DNA from: Candidatus Heimdallarchaeota archaeon
GTDB lineage: Archaea > Asgardarchaeota > Heimdallarchaeia > Heimdallarchaeales > Kariarchaeaceae
Assembly (NCBI GenBank): GCA_015523565.1
Contig: WAKA01000180.1
Span: 1 to 53,122 of the forward strand
DNA length: 53,122 bases
Direction: 5' to 3'
The position numbers were made by a program, and so were the translations under genes. Position 1 is the first letter of the stretch. The number at the start of each line of letters is the position of its first letter. Shown here piece by piece: positions 7,509 through 35,848 of this stretch. The notes beneath the pieces were generated by a model. It ran no database searches, was not told the origin of the DNA, and saw only the letters and a list, made by a program, of their open reading frames with translations.

Positions 7509-7850
7509 CTAAATCTTACATTCGTGTTTTCTTTTTCTTTGGAAAGCATGAAGGAGTAATGTCAAGAACTTCTTTACGGGATATGCTTCCGCAACTTGTC
7601 CCATCAACTTTCCCAAAGGAAGTAGCCTCATGAGCTCAGTAATCGCCTCTGATTCTGAATACCACTTGTTACCTTTTACGACATGAAAACTTTTCCAATA
7701 CTGTAAATGCCCAATTCTTGCAATTCCTTCTTCCAAAATCATTGGATTTGACATGTTTACCACCTTTGTTTCCCTTCCTACAATATACCTGATTATTTTT
7801 GCAAATTTAGTACAGATGGAACAATCGTCGTCGTAGGTAATAATTGCCAC
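7509..7850 (-). CDS. DCC-family (DUF393) thiol-disulfide oxidoreductase-like protein
   Basis: VAIITYDDDCSICTKFAKII with DxxCxxC motif near the N-terminus; ORF extends to 7874, GTG start at 7850 preferred. Confidence 0.72.
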   Translation of the reverse strand: MAIITYDDDCSICTKFAKIIRYIVGRETKVVNMSNPMILEEGIARIGHLQYWKSFHVVKGNKWYSESEAITELMRLLPLGKLMGQVAEAYPVKKFLTLLLHAFQRKRKHECKI

Positions 7851-7951
7851 AATCAAATATTCCCAATGATGCAATTATTATTTTGCATAAATCCAATTAT
7901 TTTACTCTATTCTGGGGAAATTCATTAAAGTTGCAAATTTTGTCCTTATTC

Positions 7952-22587: not shown

Positions 22588-23250
22588 TTAAAACAGTTCT
22601 TTTGCGTTTTTCATTGGCTTGAATGCCCCAGTATATGATTGGGGGAATCTTACAAAAGCCTCTGCATGGTCTGTTCCAGCTTGTATCCCTCTCAATTTTG
22701 TACGATGGTTATGAAACTGTGAATAGAAGCCTTGACCTCCTTTATGCAATTGACTTTCATAACATTGAATTGCTTTCATCCTTTTATCATTTTCATCTGT
22801 AATATCAACCAAAATTTCAGGGAATGGTATAAGCACTGTGGTTTCTGCACCAAAAACTCCCTTAACTTGATGGGCGTCTCTATCCGCTGTTGTATGGCTA
22901 GCCCACTCCACCGCTTCCAATACGATATGGTGAACTCTTCTATGCTCTCTATGATAATCAAATGGGACGTGTGTTATGATATATTCTGGCTTAATCTCAA
23001 TTATCAAAGATATTATTTGTTTGATAATCTCGTCATTGTTTGCAGGTGTTACATTTCTATTCTTAAGAACAATCGGTCTGGCGCCAAGAATTTTACATGC
23101 AGATTTGAATTCCTCTTCCCTGTTTGGATCCGATGTCACACTGACTGCCCATGCTCCTCCTTTTTTTGCATAAATGGCCAAAGTTCCTCCTGCTGAAAAT
23201 GTCTCATCATCTTGATGTGCAAATATTGTCATAATCCGTTGCTTTTCCAT
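22588..23250 (-). CDS. bshB: PIG-L/LmbE deacetylase, BshB-like
   Basis: IMTIFAHQDDETFSAGGTLAIYAKKG (AHxDDE), THVPFDYHREHRRVHHIVLEA; context with bshA- and bshC-like genes; internal Met at 23250 preferred over ORF start 23283. Confidence 0.75.
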   Translation of the reverse strand: MEKQRIMTIFAHQDDETFSAGGTLAIYAKKGGAWAVSVTSDPNREEEFKSACKILGARPIVLKNRNVTPANNDEIIKQIISLIIEIKPEYIITHVPFDYHREHRRVHHIVLEAVEWASHTTADRDAHQVKGVFGAETTVLIPFPEILVDITDENDKRMKAIQCYESQLHKGGQGFYSQFHNHRTKLRGIQAGTDHAEAFVRFPQSYTGAFKPMKNAKELF

Positions 23251-23392
23251 TAAAAACGCTCCAATTTCTAAAAATATTTGCATGTTAAAACTCTCATGTT
23301 GGTGAAATCACTAAATTTTCACAAATCTCTCACAATTTCAAGAATTTCTTCTTGAATCAAGACCACATCCATTTAATCCCACTTTTCGGTGC

Positions 23393-28460: not shown

Positions 28461-29558
28461 TTGAAAATAGGTATTGTTGGCTATCCCACTCTAGGTGGCA
28501 GTGGGATGGTTGCTTTCAACCTTGCATCAGAATTGGCTAATGCAGGTCATATTGTCCATTATATATCCTACAAGCCACCTTTTTTTTATTCCGAAAAATT
28601 AGTTTCTGATAACCTAAAATTCCACCAAGTGCCTATTCAAACATATCCACTCTTCCGCGATATCGGCTCAAATTATGGAATTCAATTAAGTAGCTACCTG
28701 ATTTCTCTACAGAAAAGAGAACCTATGGATCTGATTAACGTTCACTATTCAATTCCACATGCAGTAAGTGCCTATCTTCTAAATCAAGCAACAAATATTC
28801 CTGTCATTAACACTTTTCATGGTTCAGACGTTCATTTATTGGGACAAATGGACAACTTCAATCAGACTCTGAAGGCAGTTCTTCCTTCATTGTATAATAC
28901 GGCTGTATCAAATTTCCTTGCAAAACTTGCCCAAAGAACTTTTGACTTGAAGGAAATTCCCTCTACAATCTACAATTTTGTGGACAATCAAAAATTTTAT
29001 CCGATCCCTTCTGAAAATCGTGAACTCACAATTGTTGCGGCAGGAAACTACAGACCGATTAAACGCTTTCCATTCTTGGTAAAAACCTTCGCAAAAATAT
29101 GCAGAGACTATCCGGATTGGAAGCTTAGAATGATCGGAGATGGTCCTGAAAGATCTCTTTGCTATAAGATTGCTTATGACCTAAAAGTAACGAAACATGT
29201 CGAATTTGTTCCACCAACAAAGAACATTCCTTTAGAGTTGCAAAAAGCTTCAATTTTGGCGGCTCCAAGCCAAATGGAATCTTTTGGGTTGACTATTGCT
29301 GAAGGGATGTCTTCTGGATTACCAATTTGGGCTTCAAGAGTTGGTGGAATTCCTGAAGTCTGTATTCATGGTGAAAATGGTTTGCTTTTCCATCCTAGTG
29401 ATGACCAAGGTGCGGAAATGGCTCTAAGAACACTTATGGATGACCGCTCACTTCGAGAAAGGCTTGGAAAAAAGGCAAGGGAACGAATTTTAAATTATTT
29501 CAATCCACAAAAGATTGTGAATGAGTATTTAAAATTTTACAGGAAAATCGCGAACTAA
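28461..29558 (+). CDS. bshA: Glycosyltransferase family 4, BshA-like (N-acetylglucosaminyl malate synthase type)
   Basis: MKIGIVGYPTLGGSGMVAFNLASELANAGHIVHYIS, LINVHYSIPHAVSAYLL, INTFHGSDVHLLG, IYNFVDNQKF, NYRPIKRFPFLVKTFAKI, LRMIGDGPERS, ESFGLTIAEGMSSGLPIWASRVGGIPEVCIHGENGLLF match BshA landmarks end to end; TTG start. Confidence 0.85.
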   Translation: MKIGIVGYPTLGGSGMVAFNLASELANAGHIVHYISYKPPFFYSEKLVSDNLKFHQVPIQTYPLFRDIGSNYGIQLSSYLISLQKREPMDLINVHYSIPHAVSAYLLNQATNIPVINTFHGSDVHLLGQMDNFNQTLKAVLPSLYNTAVSNFLAKLAQRTFDLKEIPSTIYNFVDNQKFYPIPSENRELTIVAAGNYRPIKRFPFLVKTFAKICRDYPDWKLRMIGDGPERSLCYKIAYDLKVTKHVEFVPPTKNIPLELQKASILAAPSQMESFGLTIAEGMSSGLPIWASRVGGIPEVCIHGENGLLFHPSDDQGAEMALRTLMDDRSLRERLGKKARERILNYFNPQKIVNEYLKFYRKIAN

Positions 29559-31132
29559 GGACATTGATTTGCTCCTCCTCCCCCTGGGGTTTTAATGATC
29601 AATGTTTCTCCCTTTTCAGCTTTAAATGTGGTTCTTCCTTTGAGCATTCTCTTCTTTCCCTCTTTCGAAATTAGAATGTTCTCCCCGTTTGCGCCTGGAC
29701 CTGCTCCGAATATGCCCCATGGCCTAAATTTCCTTCTTTCCGTTTGCAATGAAACAGTGGCATCACTCTGAAATTCATATTCTCTGACAATGCCATTTCC
29801 ACCTGAAAAATCCCCAGTTCCCCCCGACATTTCTCTAATTTCGTATCGTTTGACTATCAATGGAAACTGACTTTCCAATGCTTCTATTGGAGTGTTCTCT
29901 GTGTTAGTCATATGGCATTGTATCGCGGATGTTCCACCTTCCCTGCATGTAGCGCCACTCCCGCCCCCTATTGTTTCATAAATAGTCCAATTGCCATCCT
30001 CCTTTGTGCCGCCAATTATGACATTATTCATGGTTCCTTGAGATGCTGCTGGAAGCCAAGGTATTAACTGAACCATTGCACCAAGAATAGTGTCTACAAT
30101 CCGTTGACTTGTTTCAGTATTCGCACTTGATGTAGCTACCCTGAAATCAGGATTAACAACACTTCTTTTTGGAGCCTTAATTTCTATAGGTCTAAAACAT
30201 CCCCAATTTGTAGGTACGTTTCTTCCAATCAATAGCCTGACAACATAATATGCCGCTGCCGTAGTAATGGAAAAGGGTGCATTGACATTCCCTGGTTGTT
30301 GTGAATCTGATCCTTCAAAATCAAAAATAATACGGTTATCTTCCGTAATGGTTACTTTGCACCTTATTTTTACAGGGTTGTCATTGTATCCATTGGAATC
30401 AAGGTAATCCTCAAATAAAGCACTACCCTTGGGAAATGATTCTATTATTTTTTCAGTTCCTTGTTTTGATTCTTTGAAAAGTGCTTCATGATATTTCTCA
30501 ACCTGTTCAAACTCTGTATTTTGGATCAATTCCTCTAGTCTTTTGACGCCAAGCATCAATGCAGAATATTGGGCATTAAGATCTCCCTTTCTTTCACGGG
30601 GTGTTCTCACATTTTCTAAAATCAGGTCCATGACATCCTTATTGACTTCCCCTTTTGAGAAAAGCTTGATTGGTGGGATGATCAAGCCCTCTTGATACAC
30701 TTCTGTAGAATTTGCAGGTAGTGAGCCTGGTACCATCCCCCCAACGTCTGCATGATGTGCCCGTGTTGCAACAATATACCTTAATTCCATGTTTTTGTCA
30801 AAAACAGGTGCTAAAAGTGAAATATCTGGTAGATGTGTTCCTCCAAATTCTGCACGGGGAGAATTGACAATGATTGCATCCCCTGCTTCCCATTTCCCCT
30901 TATACTTTTCTAAAATTGGTTTCGCCACAAACCCCATAGACCCTAAATGCACAGGAATGGCCTCTGCCTGAGCAACCAACCTCGCTTGATTGTCAAAAAT
31001 GGCACAAGAAAAATCTGCCCTTTCTTTGATGTTGGGTGAATATGATGATTTTCTGAGTACCTTGCTCATTTCTTCTGCAATCCCTTCTAATCTATTTTGA
31101 AGGATTGTCAGGCTAATTGGGTCAATTTCCAT
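29555..31132 (-). CDS. hyuB: Hydantoinase B / oxoprolinase family protein (HyuB)
   Basis: MEIDPISLTILQNRLEGIAEEMSKVLRKSSYSPNIKERADFSCAIFD, VNSPRAEFGGTHLPDISLLAPVF, ETIGGGSGA, GGGGANQ. Confidence 0.92.
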   Translation of the reverse strand: MEIDPISLTILQNRLEGIAEEMSKVLRKSSYSPNIKERADFSCAIFDNQARLVAQAEAIPVHLGSMGFVAKPILEKYKGKWEAGDAIIVNSPRAEFGGTHLPDISLLAPVFDKNMELRYIVATRAHHADVGGMVPGSLPANSTEVYQEGLIIPPIKLFSKGEVNKDVMDLILENVRTPRERKGDLNAQYSALMLGVKRLEELIQNTEFEQVEKYHEALFKESKQGTEKIIESFPKGSALFEDYLDSNGYNDNPVKIRCKVTITEDNRIIFDFEGSDSQQPGNVNAPFSITTAAAYYVVRLLIGRNVPTNWGCFRPIEIKAPKRSVVNPDFRVATSSANTETSQRIVDTILGAMVQLIPWLPAASQGTMNNVIIGGTKEDGNWTIYETIGGGSGATCREGGTSAIQCHMTNTENTPIEALESQFPLIVKRYEIREMSGGTGDFSGGNGIVREYEFQSDATVSLQTERRKFRPWGIFGAGPGANGENILISKEGKKRMLKGRTTFKAEKGETLIIKTPGGGGANQCP

Positions 31133-31174: not shown

Positions 31175-32107
31175 CTATAATTTGATTAAAATATCCGCAA
31201 GTTTTTCAGCATCATCCAACGCCCTGTCCAATGTCTTTTCACCTGGGATAACATCTCCAATTGCAAAAATTGCAGGATGACTTGTTTGATAGCTGTTTGT
31301 AATAATATGGCCATTCTCATCCATTTCAACCAGACCTTTAACAATGTCTGTATTGGGTTGTGGCTCTCCTTCAATAAAAACAACATCGATTTGCAAATCT
31401 TGCCGTCCTTCAACACTGTCGAATTTAATTCCCTCTACAACATCCGATCCATATATCTCCACATTTTCCACCTTTTTGTAGAATTTTACTGAATCATTGT
31501 TTTTCAATGCCTCAAAATGATCAATTTGCGGGACTTCCTCTCCAATCCATAGAACACTTAATTCTCCAACTACTCCAGAAATGAATCTTGCACTTTTTAA
31601 GGTATATTTGTGATTCCCTATGATTGCCGCCTTTCTCCCCTTGAATAAATTGACATCACAAACCGCACAATCAGAAACACCCTTGTGCAAGTATTCAGTT
31701 TCCCCCTTGAAACCAAAATTTTGTTGTTTTGATCCTGTGGCAACAATCAAAATATTTGCATAGAAATCAACCATCTTTGTTTTGATCAAGAGATTTTCGC
31801 CCTTATCCTCAACGAGAATTGCCTTGCTTGATCTATGTTTTACCCCACTTTGTTTTGCCTCCTCCAATTTAGTCTCTATCCATTTCATGCCTTTTGTATC
31901 TGCGTCTATCTTTTCTGAATCTTCAATATACCCTGCCTTTGCGATTTGGGAATCATATGGACTGCCTAAAACATAAACGTCCTTGCCTGATTCTGCTAGT
32001 TTCTTGGCGAGAGTCAGTCCTGCCACACCCGAACCTAAAACCAAAATGTCTGTCTTTACTGGATCAAAAGTAGGCATTGAAAACATATCATATGTCATCC
32101 TTTTCAT
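31175..32107 (-). CDS. Thioredoxin-reductase-like FAD-dependent disulfide oxidoreductase
   Basis: DILVLGSGVAGLTLAKKLAESGK FAD motif, SDCAVCDVNLFKGRKAAIIG (CxxC), IFAIGDV C-terminal FAD motif; second nucleotide motif degenerate (IIGNHKYTLKSA). Confidence 0.85.
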   Translation of the reverse strand: MKRMTYDMFSMPTFDPVKTDILVLGSGVAGLTLAKKLAESGKDVYVLGSPYDSQIAKAGYIEDSEKIDADTKGMKWIETKLEEAKQSGVKHRSSKAILVEDKGENLLIKTKMVDFYANILIVATGSKQQNFGFKGETEYLHKGVSDCAVCDVNLFKGRKAAIIGNHKYTLKSARFISGVVGELSVLWIGEEVPQIDHFEALKNNDSVKFYKKVENVEIYGSDVVEGIKFDSVEGRQDLQIDVVFIEGEPQPNTDIVKGLVEMDENGHIITNSYQTSHPAIFAIGDVIPGEKTLDRALDDAEKLADILIKL

Positions 32108-32206
32108 ATAGATTAATGCTTTGTATCAACCCAAACTCATTGATAAATTTTAAAGATTAATGGGGTGATACCATTTAAATTAAAAAGAAATAAAAAAAAG
32201 GAGATT

Positions 32207-33835
32207 ATGGAACATGAGCACAAGGGGATTAACCCTAATGTTCTCTATGATAAAGTTGTCCTTGGTATGGAAAAGGATCTTGGATCTAAACTATGGGGAA
32301 AAGTACCTCAATCAATTGAAAATATCCCGGAATTGATTACCAGAAAAACAAATAAAACCTCAAAAGAAACTCTGAACAAACTTGTAGATGTTCTTAGGGA
32401 TTTTCATCAAACAAACAATGTTTATTCTGAAAAGGTAGAGGCAAACCTCTTAAAAATCAAGAATGGATCCGTTTTTGTCGGACATCAACCTGTCTTGCTT
32501 GGTGGTCCTGGGTTTATTGCAAATAAAATAGCTGCATTGTCAGCAATCACTGATGAATTAGCTAAACATAATATCCACTTTGCGCCTATTTTCATGATTG
32601 GTGATTATGATGGGCTTCAAAAAGAGTTGGGAAGAACATATTATCCCAATCCAATTTCTGGAAATGCAACGATATTGGATGCAGAACGAGCAATTGATGT
32701 TCCAGATGATACCGTAATTCATTCAGTAAATGTTCCTGACGAAAAATGGTTCTTAGAAATCCTTGCTCAACTTGAGTCTTCTTTCAACGGTTTTAAAAAA
32801 CAAGTGAAAGTTTCTGATAAAAGAAAAATTCTTGAAGAACGGTTTTCCCACATTGCTTCCTTTCTTAGATTGACCCATTCTTATTCGAAAACATTTCCAG
32901 ATTTTTTTGTCAAGGTTTGGGGTTATCTGACCAACAAATTAAACGATTATGGGATTGTTTTCCTTCCTACATCTCTGCCGACCATCAGGAAACTCTATGG
33001 TTCCGCTTTATTCAAAATGGCTCAAAACCATGAGATATATGTTCATGAATTTAACGAAACCTACAATTGGATCTCAAGTCTAGGTTATCATCCCACTCTT
33101 CCAAAAAGGGATCTTAAATATCTTCCATTCTTCTATGAATGCCCTTGCACACAATTTCGTGTACCATTGGAAATCAATGGAAACAATGGTCATGGTAAGT
33201 GCAAAAATTGTGGACACACTATTGATATTCCAATTGATGAGCTTGATTCATTCATGAACCACATTGAAAAAATCGGTCCACGTGTTGATTCTTCACAAGT
33301 TGCGTTTCAAGATCTTCTCAACATCCAAGTGCGGATTTCGGGTCCTGGTGAAATTGCCTACTATACAATTGTTTCTCCTGCTGTTCGTGCCGCTGGATTT
33401 GAAACCCCTGTGTTTTTTAAGTACAAAAGGGTCTTCTATAACACCCCTTGGAACGAAAAACTTGGTAAACTTCTTGCTCAACGCAAACAACCTTCATTGC
33501 ATACCTCCGAATTGTTCAAACTTGTCCGAAAGAGAATTGATGCCATAAAAAATGATGACTTGGATAACTTTAGAGATGCAGAAATTTCCATGGATCGTTT
33601 CATTAATGCGACATTTCAAAACCTAGGAAAATATAGGACCAAGCTTGATGCCCAAAAATATTTGTCATGGATGTTCGGGCAGTTTGCGCCCCAAAAATTT
33701 GGACAGGAGGTGTCATGGGTTTGGATAGATATGGCATTACAGACTGGATTGAATGATTATATCCCAACATACCGTCGATTATACCACAAATATTCAATTC
33801 CGGGTTTAAAGCAATTCATCAATACAATGACCTGA
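32207..33835 (+). CDS. bshC: BshC-like putative cysteine ligase, with zinc-ribbon-like insertion
   Basis: VFVGHQPVLLGGPGFIANKIAALSAITDEL and PIFMIGDYDGLQKEL correspond to BshC tGQQaGLfTGP.YtiyKa.. and PvFWiagEDHDfdEi; length (~542 aa) matches; start at 32207 preferred (ORF 32165). Confidence 0.75.
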   Translation: MEHEHKGINPNVLYDKVVLGMEKDLGSKLWGKVPQSIENIPELITRKTNKTSKETLNKLVDVLRDFHQTNNVYSEKVEANLLKIKNGSVFVGHQPVLLGGPGFIANKIAALSAITDELAKHNIHFAPIFMIGDYDGLQKELGRTYYPNPISGNATILDAERAIDVPDDTVIHSVNVPDEKWFLEILAQLESSFNGFKKQVKVSDKRKILEERFSHIASFLRLTHSYSKTFPDFFVKVWGYLTNKLNDYGIVFLPTSLPTIRKLYGSALFKMAQNHEIYVHEFNETYNWISSLGYHPTLPKRDLKYLPFFYECPCTQFRVPLEINGNNGHGKCKNCGHTIDIPIDELDSFMNHIEKIGPRVDSSQVAFQDLLNIQVRISGPGEIAYYTIVSPAVRAAGFETPVFFKYKRVFYNTPWNEKLGKLLAQRKQPSLHTSELFKLVRKRIDAIKNDDLDNFRDAEISMDRFINATFQNLGKYRTKLDAQKYLSWMFGQFAPQKFGQEVSWVWIDMALQTGLNDYIPTYRRLYHKYSIPGLKQFINTMT

Positions 33836-33913: not shown

Positions 33914-35848
33914 ATGACTCAGTTCAACTTGCAGGATGCATTGAAAGATCTACCAAAGATCGCTCCTCTTGATTATGATAGACCTGTAGAACGTTTTGCT
34001 GTTAGATGGGGTGGCGCCGCAGGTGACGGTCTCCAATCTACAGGGCTTTTGGTTTCAAAATATTTTAATAAATTGGGATATCATATCCATGGTGTTCCTG
34101 GCAATCAATCCGCTATTAGAGGTGGACACATTTGGTATCACCTTGAATTTTCGACAAAAGAATTCCATAACTACGACAATATGGCAGATATGCTGATTGC
34201 CTTGAATGAATTTTCAATAGGTATGCACCTAAAGGAATTAAAAAAGAAGGGAATTCTCCTCTACAATAACAGTAAACGGGTAAATCTCGACAAATTCAAG
34301 GATCAAATCGAAGAAAAGGAAATTACTGTGATTGCAGTTCCATTAACAAACATTGCCCGTGAAATCGAATTGAAAACTCCTGTTCTTGGAAATACTGTTG
34401 CAGTTGGGGCAATGCTGAAAATTCTTGATTTGCCAACTGAACCCTATCTTGAAACCTTGAAAAAACGATTTTTCACAAAAGAAAGAATTTACAAGATGAA
34501 TGAAGAAGCTCTTCATAAAGGATATGATTTTGTTGATAAAAACACATCCATTCGTCTGAAAATGGCATCAACAACATTGGAGCCTTCACATGGAATTGTC
34601 GTTAACGGAAACCATGGTGTCGCATTGGGTGCCGCCGCCGCAGGACTGAAATTCCTTGCACAATACCCAATCACCCCTGCATCCAGCATTTTGACGTATT
34701 TGGCAAAAAATGCCAAAAAATTTGGAATTGTTGTCAGACAAGTTGAAGATGAAATCTCTGCAATTTCTTCAATAGTCGGTGCAGGATGGGCTGGTGTCAG
34801 GGCAATGACTGCAACATCTGGTCCTGGAATCTCATTGATGGCTGAAAACATTGGATTGGCTGGCATTACGGAAACACCAATTGTTATTGTAGATTCTATG
34901 AGGGGTGGTCCCTCAACAGGCGTCCCAACCAAAACTGAACAAGGAGATTTGTTGCCTGTCATAAATGTAAGCCATGGTGAGTTCCCACGGGCAGTATTTG
35001 CACCTAGGAACATTCAAGAGGCTTATTCCCTCACAGTCAAGGCATTTAATATTGCCGAGAAATATCAAATGCCCGTATTTGTTCTTGTTGATTTTGGTCT
35101 TTCTGAAAGGCTTGAAAATGTCAAACCATTTGATTTTGATGTTGAGATAGACAGGGGTAAAATATGGGATGGGCCAACCGACGAACTTCCTGAATACCAT
35201 AGATATGCATTCACTGACGACGGTATTTCTCCACGGGCATTTCCTCCCTCTCCTGAAGGAAAGCATATTGCAGTCGGTGCCGAGCATGACATCGATTCAT
35301 TTTCACTTGCAGGTCATAAGGCTGGCTTTCCAGAAGCAAGAATTGCAAAAGTCAAAATGTTTGAAAAAAGGTATCGGAAACTGGAAAAACTAGCTAAAGA
35401 GGATATGGCTCCTCCTAAATGGGATGGTCCTGAAAATGCAGACTATACTCTCGTTTGCTGGGGAAGTGTCTATTCCGCATGTATTGAAGCCATGAATGTT
35501 CTTAACCAACAAACTGAATTTACTTGGAATGTATTGAGCTTTGCTGAAATGTATCCTGTTCCCACAGAAAAAGTCAAAACTGAATTATCTAAAATCAATG
35601 CCAGCATAATGGTGGAAGCAAACTATACTGGACAGCTTGAGTACCTGTTGTGGCTTTATGCCCAATGGAGACCAAATGGGAGCATTAGACATATTGATGG
35701 GGAAATTCTTACAGCAACTCGCATTATTTCCTACCTTAAGGACTTGAAATTGGTGGAAGACCCTTACTCAGTTCCATACAGCATTCCTTCCAAAGAATGG
35801 AATGACGTAGGCTATATTGTCGCGAATAAGGCAAGTCATCCACTTTAA
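33914..35848 (+). CDS. korA: 2-oxoacid:ferredoxin oxidoreductase, fused gamma-alpha subunit
   Basis: GGAAGDGLQSTGLLVSKYFNKLGYHIHG gamma domain; AAAGLKFLAQYPITPASSIL, EDEISAISSIVGAGWAGVRAMTATSGPGISLMAENIGLAGITETPIVIVDSMRGGPSTGVPTKTEQGDL alpha domain. Confidence 0.93.
   Translation: MTQFNLQDALKDLPKIAPLDYDRPVERFAVRWGGAAGDGLQSTGLLVSKYFNKLGYHIHGVPGNQSAIRGGHIWYHLEFSTKEFHNYDNMADMLIALNEFSIGMHLKELKKKGILLYNNSKRVNLDKFKDQIEEKEITVIAVPLTNIAREIELKTPVLGNTVAVGAMLKILDLPTEPYLETLKKRFFTKERIYKMNEEALHKGYDFVDKNTSIRLKMASTTLEPSHGIVVNGNHGVALGAAAAGLKFLAQYPITPASSILTYLAKNAKKFGIVVRQVEDEISAISSIVGAGWAGVRAMTATSGPGISLMAENIGLAGITETPIVIVDSMRGGPSTGVPTKTEQGDLLPVINVSHGEFPRAVFAPRNIQEAYSLTVKAFNIAEKYQMPVFVLVDFGLSERLENVKPFDFDVEIDRGKIWDGPTDELPEYHRYAFTDDGISPRAFPPSPEGKHIAVGAEHDIDSFSLAGHKAGFPEARIAKVKMFEKRYRKLEKLAKEDMAPPKWDGPENADYTLVCWGSVYSACIEAMNVLNQQTEFTWNVLSFAEMYPVPTEKVKTELSKINASIMVEANYTGQLEYLLWLYAQWRPNGSIRHIDGEILTATRIISYLKDLKLVEDPYSVPYSIPSKEWNDVGYIVANKASHPL

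Follow-up and report, generated by a model that had tools for sequence, protein, structure and literature searches.

A thioredoxin reductase-like flavoprotein without NADPH motifs, linked to bacillithiol genes in Heimdallarchaeia-type Asgard archaea, as a candidate disulfide reductase

Asgard archaea are relatives of the ancestors of eukaryotes and the archaeal group closest to eukaryotes. To our knowledge, the known disulfide reductases of the glutathione, mycothiol and bacillithiol (BSH) systems are all fed by NAD(P)H, the known NADPH-dependent bacillithiol-disulfide (BSSB) reductase being YpdA (Bdr). For a proposed Asgard bacillithiol pathway, BshA and BshC were found together with almost no YpdA (PMC7278568), and a 2025 study states that no archaeon has bshA, bshB and bshC homologues (PMC12719100). 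We describe here a flavoprotein that is a specific candidate for the step which this proposed Asgard pathway lacks and that may keep BSH reduced; if this is true, a thiol redox buffer would be coupled directly to the low-potential carriers ferredoxin or F420 in Asgard archaea. A literature search, with most subscription journals outside its coverage, returned no description of a bacillithiol-linked enzyme of this type.

The closest described enzymes are thioredoxin reductases (TrxRs), which in their canonical, NADPH-dependent form carry the motifs GGGxSAxE and HRRxxxR. Enzymes that have lost such motifs are usually taken to be independent of NAD(P)H, as with the ferredoxin-dependent FFTRs of Clostridia (PMC10880999) and with Desulfovibrio vulgaris TRi (DvTRi; PMC5627308). 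The M. jannaschii enzyme MjTR, a DFTR, is without HRRxxxR and uses F420. HRRxxxR is missing as well from the Thermoplasma acidophilum TrxR, which had been named as a precedent when the present gene was read from its sequence alone; NADH is now the donor reported for this enzyme (PMC6262447), so that its value as a precedent has shifted and a missing motif is no proof that an enzyme works without NAD(P)H.

The flavoprotein gene, its motifs and its fold

The window (the whole 53,122-nucleotide stretch of DNA that was analysed, from a Candidatus Heimdallarchaeota archaeon) carries the following features:

22588..23283, minus strand: bshB-type deacetylase of the PIG-L/LmbE fold (TIGR04001 2.5e-19, below cut-off)
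28461..29558, plus strand: bshA, GlcNAc-malate synthase (TIGR03999, 286.7 bits; cut-off 273.7)
29555..31132, minus strand: hydantoinase B-like gene (hyuB), downstream of the flavoprotein gene and on the same strand (PF02538 1.8e-190; near in 6 of 8 loci)
31175..32107, minus strand: TrxR-like FAD/CxxC flavoprotein without NADPH motifs (ORF of 310 aa; start likely at 32086, giving 303 aa)
32087..32206, no strand: probable divergent intergenic region between flavoprotein and bshC genes, about 120 nt if the likelier starts are assumed
32165..33835, plus strand: bshC-like cysteine-adding enzyme (PF10079 3.9e-17, over cut-off; TIGR03998 2.9e-18, below cut-off; likely ATG at 32207)
33914..35848, plus strand: 2-oxoacid:ferredoxin oxidoreductase (OFOR) alpha subunit (TIGR03710 3e-171; after bshC also at loci L033 and L034 only)

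The flavoprotein gene is transcribed divergently from the bshC-like gene, with the 57-nt gap between ORFs as called that had been reported for the pair. Translation probably starts at 32086 for the flavoprotein and at 32207 for bshC, because M8 is the sole methionine invariant across the flavoprotein family (alignment of eight orthologues) and because the ATG that follows AAGGAG at 32207 suits bshC better. The hydantoinase B-like neighbour is probably outside the system. Within the flavoprotein, these elements were located:

32018..32035, minus strand: FAD-binding loop GSGVAG, residues 25-30 (G25, G27 and G30 invariant, n = 8 orthologues)
31658..31669, minus strand: redox-active CAVC, residues 147-150 (C147, C150 and D151 invariant)
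31601..31618, minus strand: GNHKYT, residues 164-169, replacing the dinucleotide loop GGGxSA (G164, H166 and Y168 invariant)
31547..31549, minus strand: W187, invariant, at the strand end where NADPH enzymes have HRRxxxR
31250..31258, minus strand: C-terminal FAD motif GDV, residues 284-286 (G284-D285-V286)

Residues 162-176, at the site of GGGxSAxE in thioredoxin reductases, read IIGNHKYTLKSARFI; GGGxSAxE has thus become GNHKYTLK, HRRxxxR is gone, and the protein ends in ...KLADILIKL. Its Pfam match is Pyr_redox_2 (4.9e-21) and its best NCBIfam match the thioredoxin reductase family TIGR01292 (4.6e-42), at 143.9 bits against a cut-off of 343.45, thus about 200 bits under it.

A single-sequence scan of genome contigs gave no match to the flavoprotein, and a search with the family alignment gave 14 loci, the named relatives being Heimdallarchaeota and Kariarchaeota MAGs, which places the source genome with Asgard archaea of the Heimdallarchaeia/Kariarchaea type. 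Orthologues that are 33-47% identical to the flavoprotein are present in seven other genomes of the source genome's own family (f1; families f2 to f4 belong to the same order), and orthologues score 428-458 bits, with anything else in the order at 178 bits or less. GGGxSAxE and HRRxxxR are absent from all eight orthologues, in which the FAD-loop glycines, CxxCD and the C-terminal GD are invariant. Each of them has G(N/S)H(E/K/Q)Y(T/S) as its dinucleotide loop: two of the three loop glycines are exchanged, with His invariably in the place of the third, and the E of GxGxxAxE is missing too. In NADPH enzymes, this third glycine closely contacts the pyrophosphate of NADPH (PMC5627308). Where HRRxxxR would be expected, there is a stretch that follows the invariant Trp187, with a deletion of about 8 residues in this region in five of the seven other orthologues and of about 6 residues at locus L034, and the flavin-side GGQ motif of canonical TrxRs is (D/E)SQxxKAG in this family. 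Since all seven other orthologues keep G(N/S)HxY(T/S) and the invariant Trp, the missing motifs indicate a conserved remodelling and neither a sequencing error nor decay, and we infer that NADPH would be excluded by Trp187 together with the conserved loop GNHxY(T/S). L003, the canonical TrxR encoded in the source genome, retains GGGDSAMEE and HRRDKFR. All three motifs that the sequence-only reading had listed as intact are present (GSGVAG at G25-G30, CAVCD at C147-D151, GDV at G284-V286), and its central observation, that a normal NAD(P)H glycine motif is lacking, was borne out; a search of the orthologous family for homologues with an intact motif found none.

A structure model had been proposed as a check, and an AlphaFold2 model (14 sequences; pLDDT 92.3, pTM 0.85) gave a confident TrxR fold whose top Foldseek matches are solely thioredoxin reductases and AhpF (E 6.7e-28). 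TM-scores are high against flavin-reducing (FR)-state structures (5mh4, 0.85; 1f6m, 0.84) and low against flavin-oxidising-state structures (5mjk and 1trb, 0.60 each), so that the model is in the flavin-reducing arrangement. The T. acidophilum TrxR (3cty) reaches 0.83-0.84. By E-value, Foldseek ranks the Gloeobacter FFTR 5j60 first, yet with a TM-score of 0.56, a measure that domain rotation affects, and in a search of PDB sequences with the family profile the Clostridium FFTR 6gna comes fifth. PDB 5nii, which we take from its length and description to be D. vulgaris TRi, is a weaker profile match to the family (E 3.6e-18). In the tree, 6gna groups with the canonical enzymes (97/96) and not with the flavoprotein family, on a long branch and as the sole FFTR sequence used. 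Sequence and fold place the FFTRs among the good matches without singling them out.

When compared with each described system in turn, the flavoprotein shares with NADPH-dependent LMW TrxRs (TrxB, TIGR01292; 5mh4, 3f8p, 4zn0) the two-domain FAD fold, the FAD motifs and CxxCD, with a TM-score of 0.85 to the FR-state L. lactis TrxR, and it differs from them by the absent GGGxSAxE and HRRxxxR, by the score far below the TIGR01292 cut-off and by the change of GGQ to (D/E)SQxxKAG. With the FFTRs (Clostridium acetobutylicum; 5j60/6xtf from Gloeobacter), it has in common that the NADPH motifs are lost while CxxC and FAD motifs are kept, that the second domain is shortened in most orthologues, and a good profile and fold match; its loop is GNHxY(T/S) where 6gna has GYNKEA, and in the tree it does not group with 6gna, which sits on the long branch. 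Cyanobacterial FFTRs have a C-terminal tail whose Trp stacks on the FAD (PMC12796991), whereas the flavoprotein and the Clostridium FFTR are without this tail. The F420-dependent DFTR of M. jannaschii, likened here by description, is also archaeal and without HRRxxxR (PMC6262447), and the flavoprotein's class has the F420 ligase. DvTRi is a TR that works without NAD(P)H, from a donor not yet known; its motifs are degenerate and it has a role in disulfide stress (PMC5627308); it differs by its GEGxxAxN and TQ/NGK motifs, and no bsh link is described for it. YpdA/Bdr (TIGR04018; 7a76, 7a7b) shares the proposed BSSB reduction and the link to BSH genes, but Bdr works with Cys14 in GGGPCG and NADPH, whereas the flavoprotein has GSGVAG without a Cys there and CxxC instead. 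Because it does not pass the TIGR04018 cut-off, has no Cys14 and has CxxC, the flavoprotein is not a Bdr. By its sequence, it seems to resemble those members of the LMW-TrxR superfamily that are NAD(P)H-independent (FFTR, DFTR, DvTRi) and to fit none of them, FFTR and DFTR being defined by their donor.

Bacillithiol genes linked to the flavoprotein and its homologues

Among 197 genomes of the Asgard phylum, bshC is found in 100, bshA in 90 and both in 86 (one contig-edge bshC added). These counts, and the contiguous bsh clusters of several families, contradict the statement that archaea have no homologues of these genes (PMC12719100). Complete loci with contiguous bshB-bshA-bshC were seen in f9 (5/5), f16 (3/3) and f4 (2/2), with no flavoprotein neighbour at the loci of these three families, which counts against a dedicated BSH role of the flavoprotein. 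The deacetylase of the window gives weak matches to both BshB1 and BshB2, and its assignment as BshB is supported because the three genes are contiguous in these other Asgard families.

The divergent pair of flavoprotein and bshC is present in all eight f1 genomes that have the flavoprotein gene; bshA is found at six and bshB at five of these loci, those without them being mostly cut by contig ends. In the sister family f2, bshB is immediately preceded by a flavoprotein homologue of the same orientation at 19 of the 19 loci fetched (21 f2 genomes sampled), with a spacing of about 50-55 nt where measured and with bshA-bshC 13-26 kb away where the contig is shared. These f2 homologues are about 27-33% identical and have the loop G.GNxVARG and the flavin-side motif PFDSNTAKKG; as distant homologues, they keep a GxG loop and do not keep HRRxxxR. 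The tie to bacillithiol, which the sequence-only reading had drawn from the bshC-like neighbour, has therefore gained from linkage to bsh genes in two archaeal families (bshC in 8/8, bshB in 19/19) and from bshA and the BshB-type deacetylase of the window, which that reading had not named. Chance adjacency to one of the three bsh genes would be about 0.2% per family (for about 3000 genes, a rough estimate that ignores shared descent), and two differing arrangements with one pathway, in f1 and in f2, are hard to get by chance. Part of the flavoprotein-bshC synteny may be inherited by position, hyuB being often near too.

The bsh-linked proteins of f1 and f2 come together in two trees (97/94 and 95/94); we nevertheless do not treat them as a proven clade, the alternative topology not being rejected (AU p = 0.35). 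As a separate observation, the bshB-linked f2 homologues (L047, L048, L081-L097) have AGS, AGT or AGV in place of AGD, so that the Asp of the C-terminal GD is lost, which is odd for an FAD enzyme.

One reduced f1 genome of 1.4 Mb (G200; locus L145, G200:C23:6001-26000; assembly 80% complete) retains all three of bshA, bshB and bshC, with hyuB beside bshC, and is without the flavoprotein. The flavoprotein is therefore not needed for BSH synthesis, which fits a recycling role, yet one that is dispensable.

A flavoprotein match near the bsh genes of family f6 was set aside, since it corresponds to Nfn/GltA-like enzymes outside the TrxR-like flavoprotein family. The f6 loci concerned (L133-L136) are bshC-bshB-bshA operons beside Nfn/GltA-like genes, with a bshC (PF10079 E about 1e-80) that scores far better than the other Asgard copies, and this operon looks like a separate acquisition.

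Substrate and electron donor

Our best explanation, to which we give a probability of about 0.5, is that the flavoprotein is an LMW TrxR-type, dedicated disulfide reductase of the BSH system in Heimdallarchaeia-type Asgard archaea, running on a donor other than NADPH; donor and substrate are those that we infer. In this scheme, the FAD would receive its electrons from ferredoxin or F420 in reduced form, two donors that we rate nearly alike with a slight preference for ferredoxin. The FAD would then reduce the C147-C150 disulfide on a swinging second domain, and the resulting dithiol would act on bacillithiol disulfide, either directly or by way of a small thioredoxin-like protein. The narrower proposal of a CxxC TrxR-type bacillithiol disulfide reductase that runs specifically on ferredoxin or F420 in place of NADPH is a tentative one that we would sooner doubt than believe.

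BSSB is favoured as the substrate because of the bsh linkage, because the genome has a separate canonical TrxR and because YpdA is missing or altered. A first impression that the source genome simply lacks YpdA was wrong: a match over the TIGR04018 cut-off was found, at C134:11344-12306, the only one in that genome. Three other f1 genomes also have YpdA over this cut-off and a fifth has a truncated copy, so that a YpdA homologue coexists with the flavoprotein gene in five of the eight f1 genomes that have the latter, which weighs against our best explanation; among the sampled Asgard genomes, matches over the cut-off were confined to this family, with none in the f2 genomes. All the homologues inspected (L115:7332-8378 on G000:C134, L116:8291-9346, L117:1104-2120 and L118:389-1384) have Val for Cys14, the source-genome protein reading GAGPVGL where Bdr structures have Cys. 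Since Cys14 is required for BSSB reduction by S. aureus YpdA (PMC6591457), the Val14 protein of the source genome may not be a working Bdr. Contamination is unlikely to explain this YpdA, because its contig carries what look, by eye, like archaeal ribosomal-protein genes. A search of the 58 genomes of the class for the bacilliredoxin families PF11009 and PF06491 found neither, so that no support comes from the proteins with which BSH usually works.

The flavoprotein could alternatively be a second thioredoxin reductase that works in the manner of the FFTRs known from Clostridium and Gloeobacter, or of TRi from Desulfovibrio, its bsh neighbourhood then reflecting shared stress regulation. Two strong thioredoxin homologues in the source genome would provide substrates, 6gna and 5j60 stand high in the profile and Foldseek searches, and a distant f7 relative (L046) carries, as a fusion, a thioredoxin-like domain with WCPDC. 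General thioredoxin reduction is nonetheless covered by the canonical NADPH TrxR (L003), the linkage in both f1 and f2 is to bsh genes and to no thioredoxin gene, 6gna lies with the canonical enzymes on its long branch apart from the flavoprotein family, and the FFTR TM-score of 0.56 compares with 0.85 for the FR-state L. lactis TrxR, subject to the effect of domain rotation on this score; thioredoxin is a serious rival as the substrate, though we regard this reading as rather unlikely. Nine f1 genomes were searched for the beta subunit of FTR (PF02943) without a match and gave no sign of an Fe-S ferredoxin:thioredoxin reductase. A much smaller chance goes to a dithiol oxidase of the GliT/HlmI type, a TrxR-fold CxxC flavoenzyme with no NADPH site and with oxygen as its electron acceptor. 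The flavoprotein has the same fold and the CxxC and has likewise lost the NADPH site, and GliT (4ntc) and the related 4ntd are among the profile matches, but they stand at 1e-9 to 3e-11 against 1e-43 for the reductases, and no natural-product genes were seen beside the flavoprotein, so that we hold this function to be very improbable.

The donor of the proposed bacillithiol disulfide reductase bears on two further rivals. Ferredoxin is our tentative choice, at somewhat less than even odds. The sequence-only reading had pointed to a nearby OFOR as the ferredoxin source: its alpha gene does follow bshC, but this neighbour is kept in three genomes of the same genus only and the beta subunit lies about 16 kb away, so that it is weak evidence for ferredoxin and we set it aside as a local source. 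Thus the TrxR-like flavoprotein, the conserved loss of NADPH motifs and the tie to bsh genes put forward in that reading stand, whereas ferredoxin as the donor is not established. The enzyme might instead use F420H2, as does the M. jannaschii DFTR, with any disulfide as substrate, a close rival to ferredoxin that overlaps the best explanation, that the sequence-only reading had not raised and that is possible though doubtful. MjTR works with F420 and is without HRRxxxR (PMC6262447). A match to the F420 ligase family PF01996 over its cut-off is present in every one of the 58 genomes of the class, with two copies in the source genome, and among 14 control genomes in three archaea only; the source organism is accordingly predicted by its gene content to be able to make F420, but the presence of F420 in a genome is not specific to the flavoprotein. 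A pyridine nucleotide, most likely NADH, could also still be used in a non-canonical way, as reported for the T. acidophilum TrxR. This enzyme has NADH activity without HRRxxxR and is close in fold, and GxGNxVA loops are kept in the f2 homologues; against this stand the loss of two loop glycines out of three in all eight orthologues, with an invariant His for the third, and the missing E of GxGxxAxE, which make this route decidedly improbable. Over both pyridine nucleotides together, NADH or NADPH as the donor has an equally low chance, and a donor other than ferredoxin, F420, NADH or NADPH is hardly more probable.

Several other thiol-active proteins were noticed in passing. In the source genome, L119:9019-10200 (G000:C204) encodes a glutaredoxin/thioredoxin-like domain (SWCSDCK) fused to a TrxR with GGGNSAYEE and with VRSTPKA instead of HRRxxxR. 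The f7 relative mentioned above (L046:7210-8622, G193:C121) is TrxR-like, with YSSQLARAG, a degenerate NADPH site and the thioredoxin-like domain at its C-terminus. Finally, a short ORF of the window (7509-7874, minus strand), which gave no NCBIfam match, has DDDCSICTKF near its start and what we take to be the look of a DCC-type thiol-disulfide oxidoreductase.
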